Position numbers and translations under genes: made by a program. The notes under the pieces were generated by a model. The model saw only the letters and a program-made list of their open reading frames with translations, did not search any database and was not told the DNA's origin. Below, in pieces: positions 14,876-41,612 of a DNA stretch of 42,076 nucleotides (position 1 is its first letter; each line of letters begins with the position of its first letter). Location of the stretch: assembly GCA_025455395.1 (NCBI GenBank), contig JALOMO010000012.1:1-42076 (forward strand). The letters are read 5' to 3'. The DNA comes from Bacteroidales bacterium. Its GTDB lineage: Bacteria; Bacteroidota; Bacteroidia; Bacteroidales; VadinHA17.

Positions 14876-15307
14876 ATGATAACAGTTCAGCTTATTAATA
14901 GAGATTCAGTGCTGCAGGATCTATCATATGTTGTCATTGCTGCCAGGTATAAACAGGGATGGCTTTTCATAAAGCACAGGAAAAGAGGAGGCTACGAGCT
15001 TCCGGCCGGGCATCCTGACCAAGGCGAGAGCAGTGAGGCCGCCGCAGCCCGGGAGCTGTCAGAAGAGACGGGAGCAAAAGATTTCACCATTGAGCCGGTA
15101 TCATACTATTCGGTTGACTCAGGAGCAGGGATCCAATACGGAAGACTTTTCCTTGCCGAGGTGCGATTGCTGGGAGAAATTACTGACAGCAATGAAATTG
15201 AGGAAGTAGGGATATTCAGCGAGCTGCCCGGCGAATTGTCACTTAGGGAGGTGATGACATTCCTTTTTCTCAGGGCGGAGGAGTATTTCAGATATAGTCG
15301 ATACTGA
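14876..15307 (+). CDS. NUDIX hydrolase
   Basis: Nudix box-like GHPDQGESSEAAAARELSEETGA. Confidence 0.85.
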   Translation: MITVQLINRDSVLQDLSYVVIAARYKQGWLFIKHRKRGGYELPAGHPDQGESSEAAAARELSEETGAKDFTIEPVSYYSVDSGAGIQYGRLFLAEVRLLGEITDSNEIEEVGIFSELPGELSLREVMTFLFLRAEEYFRYSRY

Positions 15308-16469
15308 TAAGCTTAAGCCACTTGTCTTCAAGAAGCCGTGCTATCCTCTTGACCACCGTACGGCGTATCTCAAGGTCAACAGGCAGAGTCGGGTCCTGGT
15401 GAGCAACATTTATGCGTGTCCCGACAATGAAGTTGATCTCGTCGCTATCCATTATCAATTTGACAATTTTATCAGCAGGACCTTTTCCCAGTTTAACGGA
15501 GTTATTATATTTTTTGACTAACTCATTGACTTTCTGAAGTGTAAGTATTCCCTCGGTAACCAGGTCAATACCCTCCATGAAGCTCTCTGGGGGCAGATCA
15601 GGATCTTCAAAGATGAGCTCGTCCACGATCTTTCTGTTAAGTTCCCTGGCAATAATATCTGCTGTTGTGCCTCCGCAGAGAATGACCTTTCCTTTGTATT
15701 CTTTGACCTTCTCTGCCAGGAGACTATCCTTTTCCTTGTCATACGGTGGCCCTGAGCAGATAAGCAGCTTGCGGGGTTCCCTGAAATAGATTATTGCACA
15801 TGATATATCATCTTTGGCCTCATACCGGTCATGTTTATAAGCCATAGTGACAATCTTGCCGGCAAGCGAATGAGCTGAAATTGATGTCTCGCTGTTAACG
15901 AGAGAGAGGGCATATTGCATAACATTTTCCCTTTCCCATCCAAGCGGCCAGGCATTGCTACCCATTCCGCTCTGGGCAACGCCATCCGACATCAGTATTA
16001 TTCTGTCTTCCTTTTCCGGGTAGAAGCTGCACTTTCTGAGCCTCTTTCCGGCATTCCTCCCCTTGTCAAGGATGACATCCTTCCAGTCTGGTTCAAAGAG
16101 CTGATTGCCTCTGAGTATTATGCATTTCGGATTGTCATATTCAAGTATGTTTGCACGCCCGTCACTCTCAATATCAACTATCGAAAAGGTGGCATAACTT
16201 ACCTTTCTTACAGAACATACCGGAAGGGTATTCATTATTATTTCTGCAATCCTGTCCGGTTCCTTGTGTTCGCGTGTGAAGTTAAGGGCCATTGTAGAGG
16301 TAAGTGTTGCAAGTATGTTTGCCTTGACACCACTCCCCATACCGTCAGAGAGAACCGTTATTATGCGGTTCTCTTCACGTACATTGACTGAAAGGAAGAC
16401 ATCACCGCATATTCGTTCACCGTGGTGATTTCGCTGCTGGCTGTTGACCTCTATAAAGAAATCCCTCTC
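15288..16469 (-). CDS. SpoIIE/PP2C-type serine phosphatase with uncharacterised C-terminal domain
   Basis: ICGDVFLSVNV, VLSDGMGSGVKANILATL, LMSDGVAQSG, KDDISCAIIYF; about 150-aa extra C-terminal domain. Start taken at MERDFFIEV rather than the longer ORF (16523). Confidence 0.88.
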   Translation of the reverse strand, partial: ERDFFIEVNSQQRNHHGERICGDVFLSVNVREENRIITVLSDGMGSGVKANILATLTSTMALNFTREHKEPDRIAEIIMNTLPVCSVRKVSYATFSIVDIESDGRANILEYDNPKCIILRGNQLFEPDWKDVILDKGRNAGKRLRKCSFYPEKEDRIILMSDGVAQSGMGSNAWPLGWERENVMQYALSLVNSETSISAHSLAGKIVTMAYKHDRYEAKDDISCAIIYFREPRKLLICSGPPYDKEKDSLLAEKVKEYKGKVILCGGTTADIIARELNRKIVDELIFEDPDLPPESFMEGIDLVTEGILTLQKVNELVKKYNNSVKLGKGPADKIVKLIMDSDEINFIVGTRINVAHQDPTLPVDLEIRRTVVKRIARLLEDKWLKLISIDYI

Positions 16470-16473
16470 CATT

Positions 16474-18360
16474 CTATTTTCCGGGCTTCTTATCAGTCTC
16501 CTTCTGCTTACGGAAAGACTCAAGAATTGAATTCAGCATCTTTTCAGTGTCTGAAGCCCCCTCGCCCAGAAGAAAGCCTATCTTCTGCACCATTTCGAGG
16601 TTTTTGTCTATTACGTCTGAGACCCTTGTTATAACCTCCTCGCGCTGTACTTCAGGTGAGAAGAGGTCACGGATCACTGCACCTGCAATTCTGTTCTGCC
16701 GGATGGGAAATATAGAGATATTGAACATCCTGTTCTCAAGCTGTACATCCCTGCTAATGACGGATTCATTTTCGCCAAGCACAAAAGAGAAGATGTTATA
16801 CACGTTGAATGGCAGAAGCGTTTTCAGGTCAGCGCCGCGAAGTCCCGGGATGATCTCTGCAATAGACCTGGCGTCTTCACCGATAATGTTTATAAAGCTT
16901 TCATTCGAGTGCAATATTTTAAGTTCATTGTCAACGATTACTACCCCGTTTGGGAGTTTATCGAGCATACTGTTCATTGTCTCCGATGCATTCTGTGCTG
17001 CATCTTTCTCCCTCATTGCCTGCTCTTCCGATTCTTTCAGTGCCTTTTTGGTTTCAGAGAGTTTCTTGTTGGTCTGCCGGAGTGTCTCAATATATTCCTG
17101 TTTGTTGCGCAGGTTATAGGTATGACACATCTCCGGCACAGCCAGCCCTTTGGCTACCGTTGAGGCAAACTCGCGGCACGATCTGTATCCGCAGGCATTA
17201 CAGTTTATCTCATCGGCACGCCTGTCTTTACCTATGATCTTCAGCACCTCCTGAACAGCCTCTTCTGACGGTTCAGGTATCCGCTGGTCATTTGCATTGA
17301 AGGTCCTCGAGAGATCAAGGTTTGACCAGCGTTCCATGTCTTTCCTCCACTGCTCCTTGTCGAGTGCCTCTACCCGTTTTTCTGCAAATTGTTTTACCAG
17401 TGAACGCCTTCTGAATCTCTCATCATGCCTTATCATACCAGGGCCAAGCATGCATCCCGGACAGAAGAAGAGGTTGAAATGATGTTTTATAGTGTCTATA
17501 TGATGGTTGAAGTCATTTATTGCCTCCATTATATCTTCCTTTCCTGAAGCGGTGATGACCTGGCTTGAGACCAGGTCACGCTTGATGCCGGCAGCCTGCA
17601 GAATACCTGCAGGGTAAGGGTACAGTGCTCCCCAGTTACCGAAAGGAGGATCAAATTCTGACATCTTAACTACCTTTTCCTGTATCTCGTTCTCTTCGAA
17701 GAGCTGCCTTATCTCAATAAAGGTAAGGACGGCTTCAATGAGTCTTTTGTCATTGTAAATACCAGCCTCAGCTTTGGTGTCAATGCATGGCCCGATGAAT
17801 ACGTTCGCCACCTCCTCCCCGTAAAGATCACGTGTGACCATGGCCGTGGCAACCATGGGTGAGACAATGGGAGAGAGGTTGGAAACTAGTCCCGGGTTGT
17901 ACTTCTCAATAATTTCAACAATTGAAGGGCAGTTGGCAGTTATATAATACTTCCCGCTGGACTCCTCAAAGAGGGTCTTATATGCAAAGGCAACCAGATC
18001 TACACCAAAGGAGACCTCATGAACATAATCGAACCCCAGTTTCCTGATCATCCCGACAAACTTGCGGTAGTCAGTGATGTCATCAAACTCTGAAGCGATA
18101 CTGGGGGCAATAAGAGCTGCTGTCTTCCGGCCCGAAGCCAGCAGTTGCTTTACGACCCCGATAGAGTTCTTAAACTCAATTGCTCCCGGAGTGCATGAGA
18201 GAAAACAGAGCCCGCATCCGATGCATCTGTCAGCAATGATGACCGGGTGATTTCTCTCAGGCTTCACTTCAATGGCGTTGACAGGGCAAGCCCTGACACA
18301 CGAGTAGGAGTTGCGGCACTTCTCCTCACTTATGTATATAACCTGGTCAGTAACATTCAT
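16474..18360 (-). CDS. Putative sensory [FeFe]-hydrogenase (group C-like): 2[4Fe-4S] ferredoxin, H-domain, PF04060-like Fe-S domain, PAS domain
   Basis: CRNSYSCVRACP and CIGCGLCFLSC clusters; H-domain motifs ITANCPSIV, FIGPCIDTKAE, FFCPGCMLGPGM; CNACGYRSCREFASTVAKGLAVPEMC; coiled coil plus PAS (MLDKLPNGVVIVDNELKILHSNESF). Start chosen at MNVTDQVIYI. Confidence 0.88.
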   Translation of the reverse strand: MNVTDQVIYISEEKCRNSYSCVRACPVNAIEVKPERNHPVIIADRCIGCGLCFLSCTPGAIEFKNSIGVVKQLLASGRKTAALIAPSIASEFDDITDYRKFVGMIRKLGFDYVHEVSFGVDLVAFAYKTLFEESSGKYYITANCPSIVEIIEKYNPGLVSNLSPIVSPMVATAMVTRDLYGEEVANVFIGPCIDTKAEAGIYNDKRLIEAVLTFIEIRQLFEENEIQEKVVKMSEFDPPFGNWGALYPYPAGILQAAGIKRDLVSSQVITASGKEDIMEAINDFNHHIDTIKHHFNLFFCPGCMLGPGMIRHDERFRRRSLVKQFAEKRVEALDKEQWRKDMERWSNLDLSRTFNANDQRIPEPSEEAVQEVLKIIGKDRRADEINCNACGYRSCREFASTVAKGLAVPEMCHTYNLRNKQEYIETLRQTNKKLSETKKALKESEEQAMREKDAAQNASETMNSMLDKLPNGVVIVDNELKILHSNESFINIIGEDARSIAEIIPGLRGADLKTLLPFNVYNIFSFVLGENESVISRDVQLENRMFNISIFPIRQNRIAGAVIRDLFSPEVQREEVITRVSDVIDKNLEMVQKIGFLLGEGASDTEKMLNSILESFRKQKETDKKPGK

Positions 18361-18376
18361 AATCAATGCATTAGTG

Positions 18377-18634
18377 TCATCTTCCCGGTTCAGCCAACTC
18401 CCTGTCAAGAATCTTTTCTATTTCTGTAAGAGTCGTCTGAATGAAGGTCTTGCCATTTATTGTAAGAAACGGACCTTCACTGCAACGGTCCATACATCTC
18501 GCTCCTTTTAAGAGTACTTTATCATCAAGGTGGTTCTTTCGGAGATAATCACGTATGACCTGCACCACCTCCCTGTTGCCTCTTGAAAAACAAGAGCTTC
18601 CGAGGCATATCTCTATTTCATATGACTGTTTCAA
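18377..18634 (-). CDS. Stand-alone thioredoxin-like [2Fe-2S] ferredoxin
   Basis: CLGSSC...ARCMDRCSEGP, four-Cys pattern. Apparent TTG start. Confidence 0.8.
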   Translation of the reverse strand: MKQSYEIEICLGSSCFSRGNREVVQVIRDYLRKNHLDDKVLLKGARCMDRCSEGPFLTINGKTFIQTTLTEIEKILDRELAEPGR

Positions 18635-18719: not shown

Positions 18720-18737
18720 TTGTTATTTAAATAACAT
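18720..18737. promoter_or_regulatory. Putative Rex operator 1
   Basis: TTGTTATTTAAATAACAT; inner 16 bp TGTTATTTAAATAACA is a perfect palindrome resembling TTGTTA-N6-TAACAA Rex sites. Confidence 0.6.
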
Positions 18738-18803: not shown

Positions 18804-19271
18804 ATGAGTAAGATTGAAGATATTCTCACCCGTTACAGGTCGGGAAGTCATGAGAGCCTGATACCCATTCTGCAGGATGTGCAGGCAGAGGAGGGCTATT
18901 TGTCTGAGGAGGCTGTTGTTAATATTGGCCGGTTTCTGGGTATGTCAACAACAAAAATATACGGTCTTGCGACATTTTATGACCAGTTCAGGTTTGTACC
19001 TGCCGGCAGGATTCATCTCAGGATATGTAACGGTACAACATGCTTTATCAACGGTTCAGGGAAGCTTATTGCCGCATTGAAAGAAACGTTAGGGGTCGAG
19101 CCTGACCAGCCTACCCGTGACGGGAGATTCAGCTATGAACTTGTGGCATGTATGGGCGGGTGCAATGATGGACCTGTAGTATGTTCAGGTGACTCTTTCT
19201 ATACTCATGTCAGGGCTGAAGATATTCCGGAAATGATAAAAAAACTTAAAGTTCTGGCAGATCTGAAATGA
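18804..19271 (+). CDS. NuoE-like [2Fe-2S] subunit of hydrogenase complex (HydC/HndA-like)
   Basis: LPILQDVQAEEGYLSEEAV-type fold; CNGTTC...VACMGGC four-Cys motif intact. Confidence 0.92.
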   Translation: MSKIEDILTRYRSGSHESLIPILQDVQAEEGYLSEEAVVNIGRFLGMSTTKIYGLATFYDQFRFVPAGRIHLRICNGTTCFINGSGKLIAALKETLGVEPDQPTRDGRFSYELVACMGGCNDGPVVCSGDSFYTHVRAEDIPEMIKKLKVLADLK

Positions 19272-21217
19272 AAAGGGTAGAAAACGATGAAATCAGGAAT
19301 TTCCTGGTTGCAGAGGTTCTGAAGCACGGCTCAGATAAGTTACCCTCAGCAACTGAGAAGCGTCTGGCGGAGATTCGTCGAGACAAACCATCGGTGCCTG
19401 TTATATATATCTCTTCCGGTTCGGCAGGCGTGATTGCAGGTAGCAAGAAATCGGCTTCGGCAGCAGAAGAGTACATCAGCGAGACGGGGATAAAAGCTAT
19501 TGTGGTTAAGACGGGATGTCATGGTCCTGCTGTCTTCGAGCCGCTGATATGCATCCACCTTCCCGGTAAGAATAAACTGATATTCAGAAATATTACAGAA
19601 GACAGGATTGAATCGCTGCTGAATGGCGTTTTTCATAATGACATGCCTGCAGAGGATCTTGTAGGGCAATCAGGATCAACCGGTTTCGAAGCATGGAACG
19701 GGGTGCCTTTCATTGATGAACTTCCATGGTTCAGACTTCAGAAGCGAGTTGTCCTGAGCAACTGTGGCTGCTATGATCCTGAATCTGTTGAGGAGTATAT
19801 AGCCCGAGGAGGATACAGGTCATTCCTAAAGACCATCCGTAACTACACGCATGAGGAGGTATGTGATATCATTGAGCGCAGCGGCCTTCGCGGACGCAGT
19901 GGCGGAGGGTTTGTCACAGGTCTGAAATGGAAGTACGCCCTCAACTCAGCCTCTGACAACAGGTATATTATTTGCAATGCCAAGGAGAGTGATCCGGGCG
20001 CATATACAGACAGGGCAGTGCTTGAGGGTGATCCTCACCGACTTATTGAAGGCATCTGCATTGCAGCATACGGCACCGGGGCATCAAATGCTGTCATTTA
20101 CCTCAAATCCGCCTCGGCTCTCCCTCTGAGGTTGCTGGAAAAGGCTATTGCTGATGCACGGCGATATGGGATCATTGGGCATAACATCTACTCCAGCGGG
20201 TATAATCTTGATATAATAATCAGACAGGAGGCTGGTGCATTTGTCTGCGGAGAGGAGACAGCACTTATAGGCAGCCTTGAAGGCAGGCGCGGCATGCCTG
20301 AGCTGAAGCCGCCATATCCTACAACAAGCGGCCTTTACGGCAAGCCTACCGTAATTAACAATGTTGAAACGCTCATGAACGTGCCCCTGATCATGGAGCG
20401 CGGTCCTGAATGGTTCCGAACAATGGGCACCACCGGAAGCAAAGGCACAAAACTCTTCTATTTGAGTGGCAGAGGTCGCCTTACTGGTCTCATTGAAGTG
20501 GAGATGGGAACCACATTCAGGACTATTGTAGAGGGTATTGCTGATGGTCTCCGTGACTCACGCGCTTTCAAGACTCTCCAGATCGGAGGGCCTTCGGGCA
20601 CTTTCATTACGGAAAACGACCTTGACCTTACTGTTGATTATGAAATTCTCCGGGAAAAGGGTATCGCCATGGGGTCAGGCGGACTGATAGTTATAGATGA
20701 GACAACCTGTATGGTTGATTTTGTAAGATACTACATGTCATTCATTCATAAGGAGAGCTGTGGCAAATGCATTCCGTGCAGGGAAGGCACAGGACGCATG
20801 CTTGAGATTCTTGAAAACGTCATCCGCAAGCCCATGACAGAGGATTCCAATGCCACTCTTGAGAGGTTTAAGGGGGTGATGCAGCTCGAGACCATTGCCA
20901 CGGTGATGAAAGACACTTCGCTCTGCGGGCTCGGACAGACAGCACCCAACCCGTTCATGAGTGCACTGAACAAATACCGTGAGGAGTTTGAAGAGCATAT
21001 CTTTGACCGTCGTTGTCGGGCTAACGTTTGCCGGGGTCTGAGAACGTTCAGTATCGATGTTGATAAGTGCACGGGTTGTACCGTATGTGCCTCCAAATGC
21101 CCTGTTAATGCCATTTATGGAACCCGTCTTCAGCCATTCTTCATCGTTGATGACAAGTGTATCGGATGCGGGATATGTTTTGATGTTTGTAAGTTCAGTG
21201 CCGTAACAGTCAGATAG
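19268..21217 (+). CDS. NuoF-like flavin/Fe-S subunit (HydB/HndC-like) with degenerate N-terminal ferredoxin domain and C-terminal 2[4Fe-4S]
   Basis: GLRGRSGGGF, SCGKCIPCREGTGRM, LCGLGQTAPNP, CTGCTVCASKCP, CIGCGICFDVC. Confidence 0.92.
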   Translation: MKRVENDEIRNFLVAEVLKHGSDKLPSATEKRLAEIRRDKPSVPVIYISSGSAGVIAGSKKSASAAEEYISETGIKAIVVKTGCHGPAVFEPLICIHLPGKNKLIFRNITEDRIESLLNGVFHNDMPAEDLVGQSGSTGFEAWNGVPFIDELPWFRLQKRVVLSNCGCYDPESVEEYIARGGYRSFLKTIRNYTHEEVCDIIERSGLRGRSGGGFVTGLKWKYALNSASDNRYIICNAKESDPGAYTDRAVLEGDPHRLIEGICIAAYGTGASNAVIYLKSASALPLRLLEKAIADARRYGIIGHNIYSSGYNLDIIIRQEAGAFVCGEETALIGSLEGRRGMPELKPPYPTTSGLYGKPTVINNVETLMNVPLIMERGPEWFRTMGTTGSKGTKLFYLSGRGRLTGLIEVEMGTTFRTIVEGIADGLRDSRAFKTLQIGGPSGTFITENDLDLTVDYEILREKGIAMGSGGLIVIDETTCMVDFVRYYMSFIHKESCGKCIPCREGTGRMLEILENVIRKPMTEDSNATLERFKGVMQLETIATVMKDTSLCGLGQTAPNPFMSALNKYREEFEEHIFDRRCRANVCRGLRTFSIDVDKCTGCTVCASKCPVNAIYGTRLQPFFIVDDKCIGCGICFDVCKFSAVTVR

Positions 21218-21220
21218 ATC

Positions 21221-22936
21221 ATGCAGTTCACAATTGAAGTAAACAGCAAGAGTATAAGGGCCGAGAAGGGAGAGACAATCCTTTCAGCACTCAACCGCAA
21301 TGGCATAATGATACCGACACTCTGCCGCATGCAGGAATTTACACCCACTGGTGCATGCAGAATGTGTGTGGTTGAGGTGGAAGGCCGTGACCGGCTGGTC
21401 ACTGCCTGTTCAGCGCTTGTGGAAGAATGGATGAAGATACGCACTCACTCGCCACGGGTTATAAAGGCAAGGAAGACAATAGTAGAACTGTTGCTCTCAA
21501 ATCATCCTGATGATTGTCTTTATTGCGACCGTAATCTTGACTGTGAACTGCAGAAGCTGTCAGACCAGCTACAGGTTAGAGAGAGGCGTATACGGGGAAG
21601 CAAGATAAAACCACGACGCGATCAGTCGAGCCCTGCAATCGTCAGGGAGCTCTCAAAGTGCATTCTGTGCGGCCGCTGCATCAGAGTGTGTGAGGAGGTT
21701 GTTACTGCCACCTCAATCGATTTTATCGGCAGAGGCCGGGCAACTCATGTCGGCCCTGCCATGGACCGCGATCTGAACTTCTCAAGCTGTATCCATTGCG
21801 GACAATGTATCCTCGTTTGTCCGACAGGTGCACTGCATGAAAGACACTATGTCACAGAGGTGCAGGAACAACTGAGCAAGAACGATGTCACCCTCGTGAT
21901 ACAGTATTCACCCCTGGTGCCCTTTGCCCTTGCAGATGAACTTGGAGTAAAGTATCAGCGTGACTTTGACAGGGTCCTTAATGCCGCCCTTAGAAAGATT
22001 GGATTCGATAAGGTCTTCCTCTCAGGTGCCGGTACTGACATCCTAATAACAGAGCTCGCAGATGCTGTAACAGCAGCCAGAACAACCGGTGAAACCAAAC
22101 CAGTTGTCATAACTGCATGTCCGGCATGGGTCAAATACTGTGAACAGTTCTTCCCCGAATTCCTGCCTATGCTCTCAACACTTAAAACACCACAGCAGAT
22201 ATCAGGTGCGATAATCAAATCGACATTGCCTCCAAAAGATCAGAACTCCGGGGTTTATACTGTCTCAGTGTCGCCATGTACAGCAATGAAGTTTGAAGCC
22301 CGGCGTGACAGCATGACACGTAAGGGTATCAGTGATATTGATACAGTGCTCACCGTAAGAGAGCTGGCCCGTCTGATAGTGTTGTACGGAATTGACGTTA
22401 CAAACATCGACCCGGAGCCTGCTGACGAGCCTATGTCACAACGCAGCTCTGCAGCTTTGCTGGCAGAGACTTCCGGCGGTCTGACAGAATCAGTGCTTCG
22501 CTCGCTTACCCTCAGGGCAGGAGGAATGGAGTCAGACAAAAGTGCTGTGAAGAAACTTCGGTCAGTCGGTTCATTCAGGGAAGCAACTGTTACAGATGGC
22601 AAGGTAACATATTCATTTGCAGTGGTTGACGGGCTAAATGGATTTGAGAAACTGAGAGAGAGGCTTGAAAAAGGATCGGTATACGACCTGATAGAGGTGA
22701 TGGCCTGTCCTGGCGGATGCGTAAACGGAGGAGGGATGATTCCGGCAGGGTCCAAAGAGGCTGTACGCCAGCGGTCAAGGTTCATCTATCAGGCTGATGA
22801 GCAGGATGCAATGAGAGGCCCGGAGAACTCTGCTACTGTATCGATGCTGTACGATGACACATTTAAAGAGTGTCAAGATCTGACTGACAAGCACTTGTTT
22901 CATACACACTTCTCCAGGAGGGATGTATTGCTATAA
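21221..22936 (+). CDS. HydA-like [FeFe]-hydrogenase large subunit (M3-type accessory clusters) with atypical active-site motifs
   Basis: N-terminal 2Fe-2S (CRMQEFTPTGACRMC), NHPDDCLYCDRNLDCELQ, two 4Fe-4S, H-domain motifs TACPAW / SPCTAMKFE / EVMACPGGCVNGGG, SSU-like C-terminus. Confidence 0.92.
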   Translation: MQFTIEVNSKSIRAEKGETILSALNRNGIMIPTLCRMQEFTPTGACRMCVVEVEGRDRLVTACSALVEEWMKIRTHSPRVIKARKTIVELLLSNHPDDCLYCDRNLDCELQKLSDQLQVRERRIRGSKIKPRRDQSSPAIVRELSKCILCGRCIRVCEEVVTATSIDFIGRGRATHVGPAMDRDLNFSSCIHCGQCILVCPTGALHERHYVTEVQEQLSKNDVTLVIQYSPLVPFALADELGVKYQRDFDRVLNAALRKIGFDKVFLSGAGTDILITELADAVTAARTTGETKPVVITACPAWVKYCEQFFPEFLPMLSTLKTPQQISGAIIKSTLPPKDQNSGVYTVSVSPCTAMKFEARRDSMTRKGISDIDTVLTVRELARLIVLYGIDVTNIDPEPADEPMSQRSSAALLAETSGGLTESVLRSLTLRAGGMESDKSAVKKLRSVGSFREATVTDGKVTYSFAVVDGLNGFEKLRERLEKGSVYDLIEVMACPGGCVNGGGMIPAGSKEAVRQRSRFIYQADEQDAMRGPENSATVSMLYDDTFKECQDLTDKHLFHTHFSRRDVLL

Positions 22937-22948
22937 TATTTAGAGGAG

Positions 22949-24913
22949 ATGCTTGTATATACTATTAAAGAGTTATGTCGCACATGCTACACATGTGTGA
23001 GAGAGTGCCCTGCACGTGCAATACGTATTGTCGGGGGTCAGGCTGAGGTGATTACCGAGCGGTGCATCGCATGCGGCAACTGCACCAAGGTATGCAGCCA
23101 GGGTGCAAAGGTTTTTACCAACACTATTGATCATGTCAGCAAGCTGCTTGAAAAACAGGGCAAAGTAGCGGCAATCGTTGCACCAAGTTTCCCGGCAGAG
23201 TTTTTTGACTTTGATGATCACAGGCTGATTGTTGGCATGATCAGGGCACTTGGCTTCAGCCATGTGGCAGAGGTCTCTTTCGGTGCTGACCTTGTGGCGC
23301 ACCGATACCGCGATATGATCAACAGCGCTGAAGGAAAGAACTATATCTCTTCTGACTGTCCTGCTATTGTCAGTTTCATAAGATTTTACCATCCTGATCT
23401 TACAGATAACCTCATGCCTGTTGTCTCTCCCATGGTTGCTATGTCCAGGGTAATGAGGAAGAAGTATGGAGAAGACATCTCAGTGGTATTCATCGGCCCC
23501 TGCGTTGCGAAAAAGTCTGAAAACCCGGAGGTAGATGCCGCGATCACCTTTCTCGAGTTAAGGGAGATGATCGATGCAGCAGGTATCACTCCCGGTTCTG
23601 TCACACCTTCAGAGTTTGACCCGCCTCTCGGCGGACGGGGTGCTATCTTCCCGGTTACCAGAGGGCTGCTGCAGACTGCCGGAGTAAATGATGATGCCAT
23701 AAGCGGGAATATAATTGCTGCTGAAGGAAGGATTGACTTTCAGGAGGCCATCAAGGAGTTTGAGGAGGGTATGATAGGAGGCCAGCATCTTGAACTGCTC
23801 TGTTGTGAGGGTTGTATAATGGGTCCTGGGATGAGCAAGGGGGGCAAACAGTACAACAGGAGAGCCCTTGTAAGCAGTTATGCTCAGCAGAAGATGGACG
23901 GGCTTGACATGAATGATTGGAAAAAAAACCTTGAGACATATGACCGGCTTGACCTTTCAGTCCGTTTCCGGCCGGAGGATATGCGCAGGCATCTGCCTGA
24001 AGAGGAGGAGGTCAACAGAGTCCTTGCATCTATGGGTAAGGTTACGGCGAAGGATCACCTCGACTGCGGTGCGTGCGGCTACGAAACATGTCTTGAACAT
24101 GCAACTGCTATTGTCAAGGGACTTGCTGAAGAGGAGATGTGTCTCCCTTATACCATCGAAAAACTGCATCGCTCCGTCAAAGACCTGGCACTATCAAATG
24201 CCAAGCTTACAACAATGCAGAATGCCCTCAAGCAATCGGAGAAGCTCGCCCACATGGGACAACTGTCGGCAGGTATAGCCCATGAGCTTAATAATCCGCT
24301 TGGAGTGGTAATTATGTACAGCAACATATTGCTGGATGAGTGCACTCCCGACAATCCTGTCAGAGAGGATCTGGTGCTGATAGCCGAACAGGCTGCACGA
24401 TGTAAGAAGATTGTTGCCGGTCTGCTCAATTTCGCGAGGAAAAACCAGGTTAACCATCAGTATATTGACATCAGAAAGCTCACAGAGAGCAGCGTGGCAG
24501 GTGTGGTCTTCCCTGAAAACATTAATACGGTAATAGTCGACCGCACAACAAACCCTGATGCTTCAATTGATGCAGAACAGATGACACAGGTGCTTACCAA
24601 CCTTTTCAGGAATGCTATCGATGCAATGCCCGATGGAGGTACACTCGAGATTTGCCTTGAGGATACTGTCAGTGACGTCATCTTCAACGTTACAGATAGC
24701 GGCACAGGAATCAGGGAAGAAGACAAGCCAAAAATATTTGAACCCTTCTTTACCACCAAGGGAATAGGAAAGGGTACCGGTCTTGGCCTGGCAACAACCT
24801 ACGGAATAGTTAAGATGCACAAGGGACAGATAACCGTGGAGACAAATGCTGATCCCGGAAAGGGAACCACAGGAACAAAGTTCAGGATAATATTGCCGAG
24901 AAGGCCTGAGTAA
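22949..24913 (+). CDS. Putative H2-sensing histidine kinase: ferredoxin, H-domain (group C-like), Fe-S domain, HisKA, HATPase
   Basis: [114 protein letters not shown]. Confidence 0.92.
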
Positions 24914-24973: not shown

Positions 24974-25369
24974 ATGAGCAATAAGAAATACACGGTCCTG
25001 GTTGCTGACGATGATCCGGATTATCTCTTTCAGGTGGCTTATCACCTCAGGAATTGCGGATATGAGGTCATGGCTGTTGAGAGTCAGGCGGAAGCAGAGC
25101 AGGTCTTTTCGAAGATGAAGCCTGACATTGCTCTCTTTGACCTTATGATGGAGAGCGATGACAGTGGTTTCATTCTTAGCTACAAACTCAAGAGACTCTA
25201 TCCCGATGTGCCGGTGATACTGGCTACTGCTGTTGCCCGTGAGACAGGTGTAACCTTTGGTCTCAGCAGCGAACAGGAGCGCGACTGGATAAGGGCTGAC
25301 CTGTACCTGGAAAAAGGTGTCAGGCCTGAGCAGCTTGACCAGGCTATAAAAAAACTGTTGAAAATATAA
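24974..25369 (+). CDS. Single-domain response regulator receiver
   Basis: VLVADDDPD...ALFDLMME...VILATA pattern; no output domain. Confidence 0.88.
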   Translation: MSNKKYTVLVADDDPDYLFQVAYHLRNCGYEVMAVESQAEAEQVFSKMKPDIALFDLMMESDDSGFILSYKLKRLYPDVPVILATAVARETGVTFGLSSEQERDWIRADLYLEKGVRPEQLDQAIKKLLKI

Positions 25370-25371
25370 CC

Positions 25372-26517
25372 ATGGCACAGCTGAAAGTACTGGTTGTTGA
25401 TGATGAGCCCGGAATAAGGTCGGGGGTCTCAAGGATACTCCGTACCTTTCATGTCACTTATCCCTTCATGGATGAGGATTATACATTTGAGGTACTGGAG
25501 GCAGCAACGGGTGAGGAGGGAATAGAAATCATTGACAGGGAGATGCCTGACATCCTGTTGCTTGATAATAAACTTCCTGGAATACAGGGTGTTGAGGTTC
25601 TGGAATATGTTCGCAAAAAGAGTTATGACATTGTGGTGGCTATGATCACATCGTATGCCTCACTCGATGTTGCAGTAAAAGCACATAATGACGGAGCAAT
25701 AGATTTCATCCCCAAGCCGTTCACTCCGCAGGAGCTTAAAGCCTCCATTGAGCAGATAACCAAGCAGCAGTATCTCAGGAGGATAACACACAAGCTCAAG
25801 GTGGAGGGAAGAAAGGTTAGGTTTCAGTTCCTGTCAGTGCTTTCACATGAACTGAAAGCTCCGTTGAATGCCATTGAGGGATATCTCAGAATGATGCAGG
25901 AAAGACAGATGGGAGACTCGATGCAGGAGTATGCCTCTGCCATAGACAGGTCGCTGCAACGTATTGAGGGAATGCGAAACCTGATCATGGATCTGCTTGA
26001 CTTTACAAAAGTGAGTTTCGAGAGACAGGTGGAGAAGATGCAGGAGATTGACCTCCGGGAGATGGCATCCCTGGCAGTGATTACCGTCAGCCCTTATGCC
26101 ATTCACAAGGATATACACTTTGTTACTGACATTAGTGGTTGCGGTAAGATTTGGGCAGACCCTAATGATTTTGAGATAATATTCAACAACCTTGTATCAA
26201 ATGCTGTAAAGTATAACAAGCCTGGAGGCACTGTAACCATCAGTGTCAGCTGTGACGATAGTGATTTTAAGCTCTCGGTTGAAGATACAGGAATTGGCAT
26301 GAACACCGATGAGTGCGGGATGCTCTTTGAAGCCTTCTCGAGAATAAAGAATGACAAGACCAGGAATATCAGCGGAAGCGGGCTTGGCCTCTCAATCGTT
26401 AAAAAGGTTGTCGAGCTCTATCATGGTATCATTAATGTGGAGAGCGTTCCGGATAAAGGATCGGTTTTCAGTGTTATAATTCCAAAAGTTCAGGTTACCC
26501 ACAAAAAGGCAGAATAA
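25372..26517 (+). CDS. Receiver-histidine kinase (REC-HisKA-HATPase) hybrid
   Basis: VLVVDDEPGIRSG, LLLDNKLPG, KPFTPQEL; LSVLSHELKAPLNAIEGY; NLVSNAVKYNKPGG; SGSGLGLSIVKK. Confidence 0.9.
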   Translation: MAQLKVLVVDDEPGIRSGVSRILRTFHVTYPFMDEDYTFEVLEAATGEEGIEIIDREMPDILLLDNKLPGIQGVEVLEYVRKKSYDIVVAMITSYASLDVAVKAHNDGAIDFIPKPFTPQELKASIEQITKQQYLRRITHKLKVEGRKVRFQFLSVLSHELKAPLNAIEGYLRMMQERQMGDSMQEYASAIDRSLQRIEGMRNLIMDLLDFTKVSFERQVEKMQEIDLREMASLAVITVSPYAIHKDIHFVTDISGCGKIWADPNDFEIIFNNLVSNAVKYNKPGGTVTISVSCDDSDFKLSVEDTGIGMNTDECGMLFEAFSRIKNDKTRNISGSGLGLSIVKKVVELYHGIINVESVPDKGSVFSVIIPKVQVTHKKAE

Positions 26518-27140
26518 TGAAAAAACTACCAGGTAAAACCGTTGAGCGCCTCAGTGAATACAGGCGCGCCCTTTTAGGGTCATTCGCAGAGAAGAGAAGT
26601 TATATTTTTTCGCATGAGCTGGCTGCACTGTTGCACATCACAGCCGTACAGGTCAGACGCGACCTGATGCTTATAGGTTATGGAAGCGTTATGCGCAAGG
26701 GATATGATATCAGGGAACTGATAAAGACAATCGGTGAGATCATTGATGCCCCGAGCGGTCTTAATGTGGCTATCATCGGCATGGGAAACCTTGGCAGGGC
26801 AATAACAGGGTATTTCATGGGTAAGAGGACCAAGCTGAATGTAGTGGCTGCCTTTGACATTGACCCGCAGAAGGTTGACAAGGTTGTGTCGGGTGTTAAA
26901 TGTTATCATTTTGACAGTTTCAAGAGGTTAAGGAATGAACTGGATATTAGTATCGGGATTCTGACCGTACCTCCTGACCAGGGAAAGACCGTTGCTGCCC
27001 AGCTCGTAAGCCACGGCGTCAAGGGTATCCTGAACTTTACGACGGTGTCGCTTAACGTACCTGAAAATGTCTATCTCGAGGAGTTTGATATGATAACGTC
27101 TATTGAGAAAGTTGCATACTTTGTCAAGGAGAACCAGTAG
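26517..27140 (+). CDS. rex: Redox-sensing transcriptional repressor Rex
   Basis: N-terminal winged helix (LLHITAVQVRRDLMLIGYGSVMRKGYDIREL), Rossmann GMGNLGRAITGY. Confidence 0.93.
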   Translation: MKKLPGKTVERLSEYRRALLGSFAEKRSYIFSHELAALLHITAVQVRRDLMLIGYGSVMRKGYDIRELIKTIGEIIDAPSGLNVAIIGMGNLGRAITGYFMGKRTKLNVVAAFDIDPQKVDKVVSGVKCYHFDSFKRLRNELDISIGILTVPPDQGKTVAAQLVSHGVKGILNFTTVSLNVPENVYLEEFDMITSIEKVAYFVKENQ

Positions 27141-28142: not shown

Positions 28143-29564
28143 ATGAAATTTAATCCGGAAAAGTGTGCTGTCCCGGACCTCCGGATGGAGCCATTTATTG
28201 ATCCTGCAGAGATATGGTCTCACCTGAACGGCGCTCTGCCCGACAGGAGCAGGGTAAGGGAGATAATAGCCAAATCGCTCTCCAAGGAACGCCTCACTCT
28301 CTCTGAGACAGCCGTGCTTATCAATGCCGGCCCGGATCTGGTTGAGGAGATAAAAGAGGGAGCAAGGGAGCTTAAGAAAAAAGTGTATGGCAACAGAATT
28401 GTATTGTTTGCACCGCTCTACATAGGCAATAAATGCAGCAATAACTGCACATATTGCGGGTTCAGGGTTACCAACACATCCGCAAAGAGAAAGACACTTA
28501 GTGATGAGGAGATCATTGATGAGGTTGAGGCTCTGGAGGACAACGGGCAGAAAAGACTGATACTTGTTTACGGTGAGCATCCGGAATATAACCCGGATTA
28601 CATTGCTCATACTGTTAAGCTTGTTTATTCAGTAAAGAAAGGAAGGGGGGAGATACGCAGGGTAAATATCAATGCTGCACCGCTCGATATCGACGGATTC
28701 CGTATCGTAGGAAGATCAGGCATCGGGACCTTTCAGATTTTTCAGGAGACATACGACCCTGAGGCTTATAAGTTATATCACCTGGGGGGCAGGAAAAAAG
28801 ACTATGCCTGGAGACTCACTGCCCTTGACAGGGCGCAGGAAGCCGGCATAGATGATGTTGGTATAGGAGCTCTCTTTGGTCTTTACGACTGGCGGTTTGA
28901 GGTTATGGGGCTGGTCCGCCATACCAATCACCTCGAGGCATGTTACAATGTCGGTCCTCATACAATCTCCTTCCCGAGGATCAAGGATGCCTCAGCGCTT
29001 AACATGAACGGCCGGTACCAGGTAAACGATGAGGATTTCAAGAAGCTGATTGCCATTCTCCGGCTTGCAGTGCCTTACACGGGTCTTATACTGACAGCCC
29101 GTGAGACCCCTGATGTGAGGTCAGAGACAATGGCTTTCGGTGTATCACAGATAGATGGCGGAACCAAGATTGAGCTCGGAGGTTATTCTGCATCACGGAA
29201 TGAGGAGCAGAACCTGAACCGCGAACAATTCAGGATAAGTGATGAGAGATCACTGGCGGAAGTAATTGATGAACTGATCGACAATGATTACATGCCTTCA
29301 TTCTGCACTGCCTGCTACCGCCTCGGACGAACTGGTGAACATTTCATGGAATTCTCAGTCCCGGGATTCATTAAACGCTATTGTACTCCTAACGCAGTTC
29401 TTACACTTGCAGAGTATATCGTTGATTATGCTTCTCCTGAGCTTGCCGAGAAGGGCTGGAGGGCAATTGAGAAGAACATGACGGCTCTTGATGAGAACCT
29501 GAGGGAAAGTGTAAGGAATAAAATTGACCGTATCAGGAACGGAGAAAGAGATCTTTACTACTAA
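28143..29564 (+). CDS. hydG: [FeFe]-hydrogenase H-cluster radical SAM maturase HydG
   Basis: CSNNCTYCGF radical SAM motif, C-terminal FCTACYRLGRTGEHFME; genomic context. Confidence 0.94.
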   Translation: MKFNPEKCAVPDLRMEPFIDPAEIWSHLNGALPDRSRVREIIAKSLSKERLTLSETAVLINAGPDLVEEIKEGARELKKKVYGNRIVLFAPLYIGNKCSNNCTYCGFRVTNTSAKRKTLSDEEIIDEVEALEDNGQKRLILVYGEHPEYNPDYIAHTVKLVYSVKKGRGEIRRVNINAAPLDIDGFRIVGRSGIGTFQIFQETYDPEAYKLYHLGGRKKDYAWRLTALDRAQEAGIDDVGIGALFGLYDWRFEVMGLVRHTNHLEACYNVGPHTISFPRIKDASALNMNGRYQVNDEDFKKLIAILRLAVPYTGLILTARETPDVRSETMAFGVSQIDGGTKIELGGYSASRNEEQNLNREQFRISDERSLAEVIDELIDNDYMPSFCTACYRLGRTGEHFMEFSVPGFIKRYCTPNAVLTLAEYIVDYASPELAEKGWRAIEKNMTALDENLRESVRNKIDRIRNGERDLYY

Positions 29565-29575
29565 CATGACTGGAT

Positions 29576-30100
29576 ATGGTAAGAGTATTAGGTATTAAGA
29601 TCATTGACAGGATTAAAGAAGCCGGGCTTCTGCAAAAAATACTGTCGGAACATGCCGGTGTCATAAGCACCCGTTTTGGATTTCATGAATTGAGCGATGA
29701 AATATGCAGCCGTGAAGGATTTATAATTATACATCTTGCGGGCGACAATGATGAGTGCGATATGCTGGCAGCAAAGCTCAAGAAGGCAGAGGGCTTAATA
29801 ACAAGAGAGATGGCTTTTTCTCATGGCCTCTCTGATGCCCCTGCCGAGTGCAATGGTGTTACATTGCTTGGAATTCTCGTGCCAAAGCGTGATGACCTGG
29901 GGATACATGTCCAGAAAATTTTTACCACTTTCGGTTGTATCATACGCACACGACTCGGGGTAAATGAGGTTTACTTTGGTGAATCAGCAGGCCTGATTAT
30001 TCTTGAGCTGGCAGGTGACAGAAGACAGTTCATCTCGCTCGAGAGCAGTCTGCGCGAGATAGAGGATATCGCTATAGGTCGTATCTGCTTTCCTGCCTGA
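29576..30100 (+). CDS. Tandem TM1266-like (iron-only hydrogenase system regulator, ACT-like) protein
   Basis: Two similar ~80-aa halves (RVLGIKIID...ISTRFGF...REGFIIIHLAG and TLLGILVPK...IRTRLGV...GLIILELAG) directly after hydG. Confidence 0.75.
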   Translation: MVRVLGIKIIDRIKEAGLLQKILSEHAGVISTRFGFHELSDEICSREGFIIIHLAGDNDECDMLAAKLKKAEGLITREMAFSHGLSDAPAECNGVTLLGILVPKRDDLGIHVQKIFTTFGCIIRTRLGVNEVYFGESAGLIILELAGDRRQFISLESSLREIEDIAIGRICFPA

Positions 30101-32721: not shown

Positions 32722-33810
32722 TCATGATTTTGTCCTCCGCTTATTGAAGTGAGGAGCGTCGCCCCAGATGCCTAAACCTATTGCTGTACCCGGGATCAGA
32801 TCCATATTAAGGCCGCTTACGTTGACCTCCTCCACCTCCTTGTAGCCGGGCTTACCTTCATAGATGCGGTATCCTGCCCTGTATCTCTCAGGAGTAAGGT
32901 TGGGCATTATGACGTTTGCCCCGCAGGCTATGGCCTTCTCACGTCCGAAAGATTGGATGGTCTGCATTGCTGTTGAGGCGACAATATTAATATCCTTCAT
33001 CACAATACGTGCAATGGCAATCATTCTGAGAGTAAGGTTAAAACGCTCTTTCAGGAAGAGGTTCTCCGTTCCGTTCTTTCCCAGAGGAGTATCTGAGTGC
33101 TCAATAAACGGACCCATGCCACACATGTCAATATCAAAATCACGCATGAACAAGATATCATCAGCAAGATGATTCAGCGTCTGACACGGAAGGCCGATCA
33201 TCACCCCGGTGCCTGTCTGATAACCTTCTTCCTTAAGGGTCTGCAGACATTCGAGTCTGTTGTAATAATTATGCATCTCGTCATCCGGGTGTGCCTTGCG
33301 ATAGAGGTCAGGACTTGAAGCCTCAATCCTGAGGAGGTATCTGTGTGCACCTGCCTCAAACCAGCGCCTGTAGGTCTCTCTCTTCTGCTCACCCAGGGAG
33401 AGAGTGATGCCGAGTCGACCGTCAGTCATTTTTTTAATTGTAGTTACGAGTCCTTCGATATTCGAGATAAATGATTCAGATGTGTTCTCCCCTGACTGTA
33501 TTGCAATTGATCCGAAATTCAATTTGTAAGCTGTCAAGGCGGCCTTGATCACCTCATCATTCGAGAGGGTATAGTGTTCAACCTTCCGGTTCTCACGCCT
33601 GATACCACAGTAGAGACAGTTCTTTCCGCAGAGATTTGAGTATTCTATGAGGCCTCTCAGATAAACTATGTTACCCAGGTACCTGTCTCTTACCTCGGCT
33701 GCCTTGCGGTAAAGCAAAGGTGCCTCCTCATCACTGCATCTCAACAGTTCAATTATATCAGATCTTTCATGATACTCTTTTTCGAGTATCGTCTGTATTC
33801 CGGAGGTCAT
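32722..33810 (-). CDS. hydE: [FeFe]-hydrogenase H-cluster radical SAM maturase HydE
   Basis: LIEYSNLCGKNCLYCGIRRENRKVEHYTLS, IQSGE, SLGEQKRETYRRWFEAGAHRYLLRIE. ATG start preferred to the GTG at 33816. Confidence 0.92.
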   Translation of the reverse strand: MTSGIQTILEKEYHERSDIIELLRCSDEEAPLLYRKAAEVRDRYLGNIVYLRGLIEYSNLCGKNCLYCGIRRENRKVEHYTLSNDEVIKAALTAYKLNFGSIAIQSGENTSESFISNIEGLVTTIKKMTDGRLGITLSLGEQKRETYRRWFEAGAHRYLLRIEASSPDLYRKAHPDDEMHNYYNRLECLQTLKEEGYQTGTGVMIGLPCQTLNHLADDILFMRDFDIDMCGMGPFIEHSDTPLGKNGTENLFLKERFNLTLRMIAIARIVMKDINIVASTAMQTIQSFGREKAIACGANVIMPNLTPERYRAGYRIYEGKPGYKEVEEVNVSGLNMDLIPGTAIGLGIWGDAPHFNKRRTKS

Positions 33811-33880
33811 ATACACAGTTAGGCTTGTAACCTATAACAAGTATTCACGATATACTGTTCAGCATTTCTGATTTTTTTGA

Positions 33881-40544: not shown

Positions 40545-41612
40545 ATGAAAAAGGAACTGAGATTAATGAAGGGCAATGAAGCTATCGCCGAGGCGGCGAT
40601 ACGCGTCGGCGCCGATGGTTATTTCGGGTATCCCATCACTCCGCAGAGTGAGATACTTGAATATCTAATGGAGGCTAACCCCCAGGCCCGTACGGGTATG
40701 GTAGTGCTTCAGGCCGAAAGCGAAGTCGCTGCGATAAATATGGTGTATGGTGGTGCAGCCTGCGGCAAAAAGGTTCTTACCTCCTCCTCGTCACCCGGCA
40801 TAAGCCTGAAGCAGGAGGGTATTACATATATAGCAGGGGCCGAACTGCCCTGCCTTATTGTAAACGTTGTTCGGGGCGGCCCCGGGCTAGGAACAATACA
40901 ACCTGCCCAGAGTGATTATTTCCAGGCTGTGAAAGGAGGCGGACACGGCGATTATCATCTTATTGTGCTGGCCCCCTCATCGGTTCAGGAAATGGCCGAC
41001 TTCGTCGAACTGGGTTTTGACCTTGCATTCAAATACAGGAATCCCGTGATGATACTCTCTGACGGAGCAATTGGACAGATGATGGAGAAGGTCTATCTGA
41101 AGCCGCAGCAGGAGAGATCAACAGAGATTTTGCCCTGGGCTACAACAGGAAAACCTGATACACGAGAGCGCAATATCATCACTTCGCTTGACCTTGACGC
41201 CTCACGCCAGGAGAAATTCAACCTGAAACTCGTGGCCAAATACAATGAGATTAAGGAGAAGGAGGTACGCCTCGAGGAGTTTGAAACGGATGATGCTGAG
41301 TATATCCTGGTTGCCTATGGCACCAGCGCAAGAATATGTCAGAAAGCCATTAAGCTTGCAAGAGCAGAGGGAATAAAGGTAGGGTTGTTGCGTCCGATAA
41401 CACTGTTTCCCTACCCGGCCCGCAGGCTGAATGAACTGGCCTCGAATGTCAAGGGTATGCTCGCAGTTGAGATGAGCACAGGCCAGATGGTTGAAGATGT
41501 GATGCTGGCAGTCAATGGCAAGACACGTGTTGCACATTACGGAAGGATGGGAGGAATAATACCGACACCTGAAGAGGTTGTTGAGAACCTGAAGAAATTT
41601 ATAAAAGGATAA
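40545..41612 (+). CDS. 2-oxoacid:ferredoxin oxidoreductase subunit alpha (VorB/KorA-like)
   Basis: MKGNEAIAEAAIRVGADGYFGYPITPQSEILEYL; SSSPGISLKQEGI. Confidence 0.92.
   Translation: MKKELRLMKGNEAIAEAAIRVGADGYFGYPITPQSEILEYLMEANPQARTGMVVLQAESEVAAINMVYGGAACGKKVLTSSSSPGISLKQEGITYIAGAELPCLIVNVVRGGPGLGTIQPAQSDYFQAVKGGGHGDYHLIVLAPSSVQEMADFVELGFDLAFKYRNPVMILSDGAIGQMMEKVYLKPQQERSTEILPWATTGKPDTRERNIITSLDLDASRQEKFNLKLVAKYNEIKEKEVRLEEFETDDAEYILVAYGTSARICQKAIKLARAEGIKVGLLRPITLFPYPARRLNELASNVKGMLAVEMSTGQMVEDVMLAVNGKTRVAHYGRMGGIIPTPEEVVENLKKFIKG

Follow-up and report, generated by a model that had tools for sequence, protein, structure and literature searches.

The HydA subunit encoded in the Bacteroidales DNA analysed here (42,076 nucleotides, hereafter the window) belongs to a set of HydABC-type [FeFe]-hydrogenases in which the pocket around the H-cluster has been reset, the new residues at positions 299, 353, 358, 417 and 418 being nearly fixed, beyond chance, across 62 relatives. 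Together with conserved changes in the flavin subunit, this new pocket, kept in dozens of genomes of uncultured relatives, suggests that the complex has undergone a change of job, perhaps from fast H2 turnover to slow H2/redox sensing, rather than decay.

The hydA open reading frame (21221–22936, + strand) encodes 571 amino acids of a group A, M3-type [FeFe]-hydrogenase catalytic subunit. Its Pfam matches are Fe_hyd_lg_C (1.2e-63), Fer2_4, NADH-G_4Fe-4S_3 and Fe_hyd_SSU, and its top NCBIfam model is NF040763 ('group A6'), with a score of 557 bits that lies below the model cutoff of 765. The M3 layout comprises 2Fe-2S, His-Cys 4Fe-4S and two 4Fe-4S sites followed by the H-domain and the small-subunit domain, and the ligand columns are invariant; the C-terminal end is Fe_hyd_SSU, and the C-terminal FeS motif of group C and a PAS or kinase domain are both absent. 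Among PDB sequences it best matches the HydA1 proteins of T. kivui and A. woodii and T. maritima HydA, followed by CpI. An AlphaFold2 model, for which 57 aligned sequences were the input, had a mean pLDDT of 81 (~90 across the H-domain), and a Foldseek search with this model ranked the T. kivui HydABC first (8a6t_A, TM 0.87). Upstream of hydA lie hydC (NuoE-like; 18804–19271, +) and hydB (NuoF-like, the FMN/NADH subunit; 19268–21217, +), i.e. the same three-subunit gene order as in the group A3/BfuABC enzymes of T. kivui, A. woodii and T. maritima (8a6t, 7q4v, 7p5h), with which the locus also shares the M3 HydA, the HydB FeS motifs B1–B4 and the HydC site C1. An earlier note on this DNA had proposed an A3/HydABC-type complex from the M3 architecture and the NuoE/NuoF partners, and these results support a HydABC origin.

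We aligned HydA to CpI, whose residue numbering is used here, and to HydA of T. kivui, A. woodii and T. maritima, and checked the codon positions of the features in hydA against the sequence. The replacements found were C299A, E279L, E282A, R286A, M353S, K358M, S323T, F417A and G418E, while all four H-cluster Cys (C300, C355, C499 and C503) are retained together with S319, Q325 and M497. On the + strand, the altered proton-path segment ILITELADA (E279 to L, E282 to A) is encoded at 22040–22066; A299-C300, in which the relay Cys299 has become Ala next to the retained H-cluster ligand, at 22115–22120; SPCTAM (M353S, C355 retained, K358M) at 22271–22288; and, from column comparison, A417-E418 (F417-G418 in CpI) at 22463–22468 and the retained M497, C499 and C503 at 22700–22720. 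HydA consequently fails the L1 and L2 motifs of group A3/BfuABC, having ITACP instead of TSC(C/S)P and SPCTAMK instead of MPCxxKK. The alignment bears out the non-canonical pocket described in the earlier note (C299A, M353S, K358M, E279L, E282A and KSPQ to KTPQ), as well as the retention of the H-cluster Cys ligands. The F417L replacement that it listed was rejected as a register slip: the ungapped alignment of IFGATGG with LLAETSGG gives F417A and G418E, and F417 is a residue in direct contact with the diiron site (PMC5954619).

Conservation was followed in 80 loci fetched from named genomes and 30 from relatives of the source genome. The rebuilt set was defined as HydA sequences with A299 and M358, and contained 62 sequences once duplicates had been removed. 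Position 353 is Thr in 56 of these and Ser in six, position 417 is nearly always small (Ala in 54), and position 418 is Glu in 59/61 and Asp in 2/61; Q325 (62/62), M497 (61/61), K359, E361 and G421/G422 are invariant. E279, E282 and R286 are variable across the 62 sequences in a manner indicative of drift, and the outer proton path thus appears to have drifted while the pocket was reset. When the 62 rebuilt sequences were compared with 26 canonical ones, 11 of the 572 HydA columns were conserved in both sets yet different between them, and five of the 11 were positions 299, 353, 358, 417 and 418. Positions 299 and 358 define the two sets and were therefore left out of the enrichment test; three of the nine remaining switched columns fall within 18 positions that we take to make up the pocket around the H-cluster (hypergeometric p ~0.002). 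Pairwise dN/dS values for hydA were 0.03–0.06 in seven pairs, like those of hydB and the other cluster genes, with several dS values near saturation. A related HydA, free of internal stops in every match, occurs in 78 of 117 genomes of the assigned family, the rebuilt pocket having been checked in only some of them. The earlier note proposed that the pocket is tuned to a purpose other than fast canonical turnover, and these data support the proposal well, as purifying selection holds the replacements fixed and, in CpI, C299A and E279A/Q leave <1% of activity (R286A and E282A are mild; PMC6226526).

Damage limited to HydA was rejected, since HydB is also changed in its B5 site, FMN loops and AFM motif. 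Two of the three conserved Cys of the N-terminal [2Fe-2S] (B5) region of hydB (19412–19543, +) are lost, and in the FMN loops (19883–20014, +) GRGG has become GRSG, NADE has become NAKE and AFM has become AYT. The same is seen in the relatives that carry the rebuilt HydA pocket: B5 ligands are lost in nearly all members of the clade, usually leaving one of the three conserved Cys, GRSG replaces GRGG in 52/52, NAKE replaces NADE in 51/52, the AFM motif reads (A/S)(F/Y)(T/S/A/C) with loss of the Met, and fixation is likewise complete or almost complete for G321E, A370M and C446F. The locus therefore differs from group A3/BfuABC at HydA 299, 353, 358, 417 and 418 and in the B5 ligands, AFM motif and FMN loops of HydB. 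Still present are B1, B2 (His and Cys), B3 and B4, the C1 [2Fe-2S] ligands of HydC, the GEE loop, the FeS chain from the H-cluster to FMN, and K, N and E at the positions equivalent to the FMN contacts Lys177, Asn194 and Glu197 (A. mobile numbering). B5 has been stated to be conserved in all Bfu enzymes, with a proposed role in bifurcation (PMC9304861), and AFM is listed as one of the motifs by which bifurcating enzymes can be told from non-bifurcating ones, in a paper that also gives Lys177, Asn194 and Glu197 as FMN contacts (PMC8880783). Loss of bifurcation is therefore a fair prediction, whereas loss of FMN is not, because B5 and AFM have been lost but the three FMN contacts have been kept.

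An unrooted HydA tree was built without the trait columns. The rebuilt HydA sequences form one clade (support 100/96), with the canonical members of the same gene cluster falling outside it; a faster tree recovered the same main grouping with support of only 81 for this clade. A sister group of three (L024/L116, L025/L117 and L029/L120) joins the rebuilt clade with support of 100/100, and its HydA has C299H and K358A, a partly shared pocket and, in two of the three, E418. This group constitutes a second rebuilt pocket type, in which the B5 positions of HydB are without Cys and an FMN loop is altered. Scattered losses of C299 (to S, D, Y or H) are found in other Bacteroidales HydA. C299 and K358 change several times on the tree and the HydB flavin-site traits once. 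An independent-pairs test of HydA against HydB had too few independent changes; the HydA–HydB link is not statistically independent, because all of the changes may trace to one deep branch. As the tree is unrooted, we take the canonical HydA state to be ancestral because it is present in other phyla and in the characterised enzymes. The hydC-hydB-hydA-hydHK-receiver part of the cluster, as far as each contig reaches, occurs in Elusimicrobia (L102), Melainabacteria (L101), Aminicenantes (L103) and Bdellovibrionales (L109), where HydA is canonical except for Ser at position 300 in some. This Ser, which takes the place of the ligand C300 and is also found in A. woodii HydA1, is part of a TSCSP motif (TTCSP in L103) seen in HydA of L001, L098, L101, L103, L108, L109, L111 and L112. 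At least one canonical group A HydA also accompanies the module in every module-bearing genome of the genus (19/19), which means that the rebuilt HydA need not carry the bulk H2 chemistry. Two such paralogues are present in the same genome as the window (G000:C121:39234-41003 and G000:C84:42176-43909).

The gene cluster has a layout common to the relatives, in which genes for SpoIIE, a HydS-like protein and a 2Fe-2S protein are divergent from hydC, hydB, hydA, hydHK, receiver, receiver-kinase, rex and ribF. Domain searches and motif comparison identified hydHK (22949–24913, +) as encoding a group C-like H-cluster domain and FeS motif joined to HisKA and HATPase domains, i.e. the sensory layout of group C. 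It is followed on the + strand by a single-domain response regulator (24974–25369), a receiver-histidine kinase hybrid (25372–26517) and the redox-sensing repressor Rex (26517–27140; domain and NCBIfam-type family searches). The divergent genes on the - strand encode a thioredoxin-like [2Fe-2S] protein (18377–18634), a HydS-like H-cluster protein with a PAS-like region (16474–18408; domain and family searches, motif comparison) and a SpoIIE-type phosphatase (15288–16523). The earlier note had missed the histidine kinase with an H-cluster domain downstream, the remodelled HydB and the canonical HydA in the same cluster of other phyla. Within the divergent promoter, the palindrome TGTTATTTAAATAACA (TGTTA-N6-TAACA, 18721–18736) recurs in most of the rebuilt loci and resembles what we take to be a Rex site; no match to the strict operator TTGT-N8-ACAA was found near the operon. 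The maturase genes hydG (28143–29564, +) and hydE (32722–33816, -) are also in the window, and HydF is encoded elsewhere in the source genome. The HydS-like protein of L104–L106, L110 and L113, which are outside the rebuilt clade and have mostly canonical HydA, is without the H-cluster ligand C499 (YDDGC, YNDGC or similar), unlike that of the rebuilt clade, which, counted by class, retains CxxC at this site.

The association of BfuABC with a kinase is already known. In the sections of PMC11406978 considered here, BfuABC sub-type V (Hydrogenedentota, Caldithrix) is described as having a kinase-type BfuT after bfuA, with a double-BfuT arrangement in three Bacteroidota (Tenuifilum, Williamwhitmania and Perlabentimonas). 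The locus likewise has bfuCBA followed by a gene for a kinase-fused H-cluster protein and, as in the Bacteroidota, a second H-cluster protein gene upstream of hydC, a likeness based on gene order. These sections give TSC and MPC..KK as general BfuA motifs and do not describe the rebuilt pocket and HydB. A literature search that covered few subscription journals found no description of this variant.

The analogy with T. maritima HydS drawn in the earlier note holds in part. Ala 299, a small residue at 353 in place of Met and the H-cluster Cys are common to HydA and group C TmHydS (PMC10055695), but TmHydS has Gly 353, Tyr 417, Ser 497, a PAS domain and a C-terminal FeS site where HydA has T/S353, A417, E418, M497 and an M3 rather than a HydS layout. 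Group D TamHydS (M2e; PMC8163306, PMC10407848) also has Ala 299 and Ser/Thr 353, but it has Leu 497 and the two group D relatives compared keep K358, whereas HydA has Met 497, Met 358 and Glu 418; K358M, A417 and E418 are thus unlike either group. TmHydS and TamHydS, both with Ala at 299, are slow enzymes, and the proton relay of TamHydS is a Glu, E252 (PMC10055695, PMC10407848). We placed E252 by the residue spacing of two group D plasmid-record sequences (54/62/38 and 53/66/37, compared with 54/61/37 in TamHydS), which puts it just after the GG pair at ~CpI 423, where HydA is hydrophobic; equivalence of E418 with E252 was therefore rejected. E418 is next to position 417, and for that reason may nevertheless be a candidate relay.

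We tentatively favour, with considerable reservation, the reading of a BfuABC-type complex remodelled into an H2/redox-responsive enzyme that is slow, probably non-bifurcating and likely to be regulatory. A HydC-HydB-HydA complex of BfuABC/HydABC type would have been rebuilt on one Bacteroidales branch, where, as the sequences show, the group A proton path and the diiron-lining C299, K358, M353 and F417 have given way to a new conserved set, i.e. A, M, T/S and a small residue, with E/D at 418 in addition; E418 is a candidate substitute proton relay. HydA would still bear an H-cluster and turn over H2 slowly, would no longer bifurcate electrons, and would act mainly as an H2/redox-responsive member of an H2-signalling operon, with one or two canonical HydA doing the bulk chemistry. 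The sensor role is suggested by the operon context and the resemblance to HydS. However, the regulators of the operon do not by themselves make HydA a sensor, because HydA is canonical in outgroup operons that carry this kinase, and the lack of a PAS or kinase domain in HydA argues against this role. The retention in HydB of Lys, Asn and Glu for FMN binding and of the His/Cys ligands of B2 also counts against the favoured reading. The evidence for the rebuilt locus consists of sequences from MAGs. A more specific version is possible but doubtful: in a lineage with separate canonical hydrogenases, a complete HydABC would have turned from a catalyst into a complex that slowly senses both H2 and redox state, its group A pocket being rebuilt around M358/T353/A417/E418 and its protons taking a new route.

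We consider it rather unlikely that the complex is instead a slow or biased metabolic hydrogenase, i.e. an NAD(P)H-linked, non-bifurcating enzyme with an alternative proton route (e.g. E418) that, controlled by Rex, takes up H2 or balances redox at low flux. The retained FMN ligand equivalents, GEE loop and FeS chain would be expected of such an enzyme, as would the Rex-like site upstream, and TamHydS, working via a different Glu relay, demonstrates that an alternative route is possible; however, the FMN/NADH site carries the NADE to NAKE and GRGG to GRSG changes, canonical HydA enzymes coexist in the genome, and K358 has been lost even though the group C-like hydHK and the group D sequences compared keep it. 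Loss of both K358 and C299 could also mean that HydA binds just the [4Fe-4S] half of the H-cluster, with no diiron site, leaving a pseudo-hydrogenase that acts as an NADH/ferredoxin redox relay or scaffold. Changes near the site often block H-cluster formation in group A (PMC10407848), and the four retained Cys do not prove the presence of the diiron site, because the same Cys also ligate the cubane. We regard this as improbable, since Q325, M497 and G421/G422 are invariant, the diiron-side residues are newly fixed rather than free to vary, and hydG adjoins the module in 23 of the 31 remodelled loci of at least 17 kb. The lost proton path, small residue at 417 and new acidic cavity residue would leave room for a ligand other than H2/H+, but the operon holds no accessory enzyme gene pointing to another substrate and we know of no precedent for an H-cluster with one, making this reading very improbable. 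Relaxed selection on a decaying hydA, which the redundant canonical HydA and the different substitutions (C299H, K358A) of the sister group might have implied, is rejected by the dN/dS of 0.03–0.06, the lack of stops in dozens of genomes and the fixation of the new residues.

Single mutations of C299, M353 and E279 have cost model hydrogenases part or all of their activity. The rebuilt locus provides a group A scaffold in which these three residues together with K358 and F417 have changed in nature, beside canonical members of the same cluster. Matched rebuilt/canonical pairs would allow second-shell control of rate, bias and inhibitor response to be tested, as well as whether an H-cluster works without K358 and C299 and by what means B5 and the AFM motif can be dispensed with in a bifurcating complex. 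Such work would also reveal whether [FeFe]-hydrogenases gave rise to sensing on more than one occasion.

Two further genes in the window were noted. Directly after hydG is a gene for a TM1266-like 'iron-only hydrogenase system regulator' (29576–30100), which is kept in most relatives with an adjacent hydG, and near the end of the window lies a gene for a pyruvate/2-oxoacid:ferredoxin oxidoreductase subunit (40545–41612).
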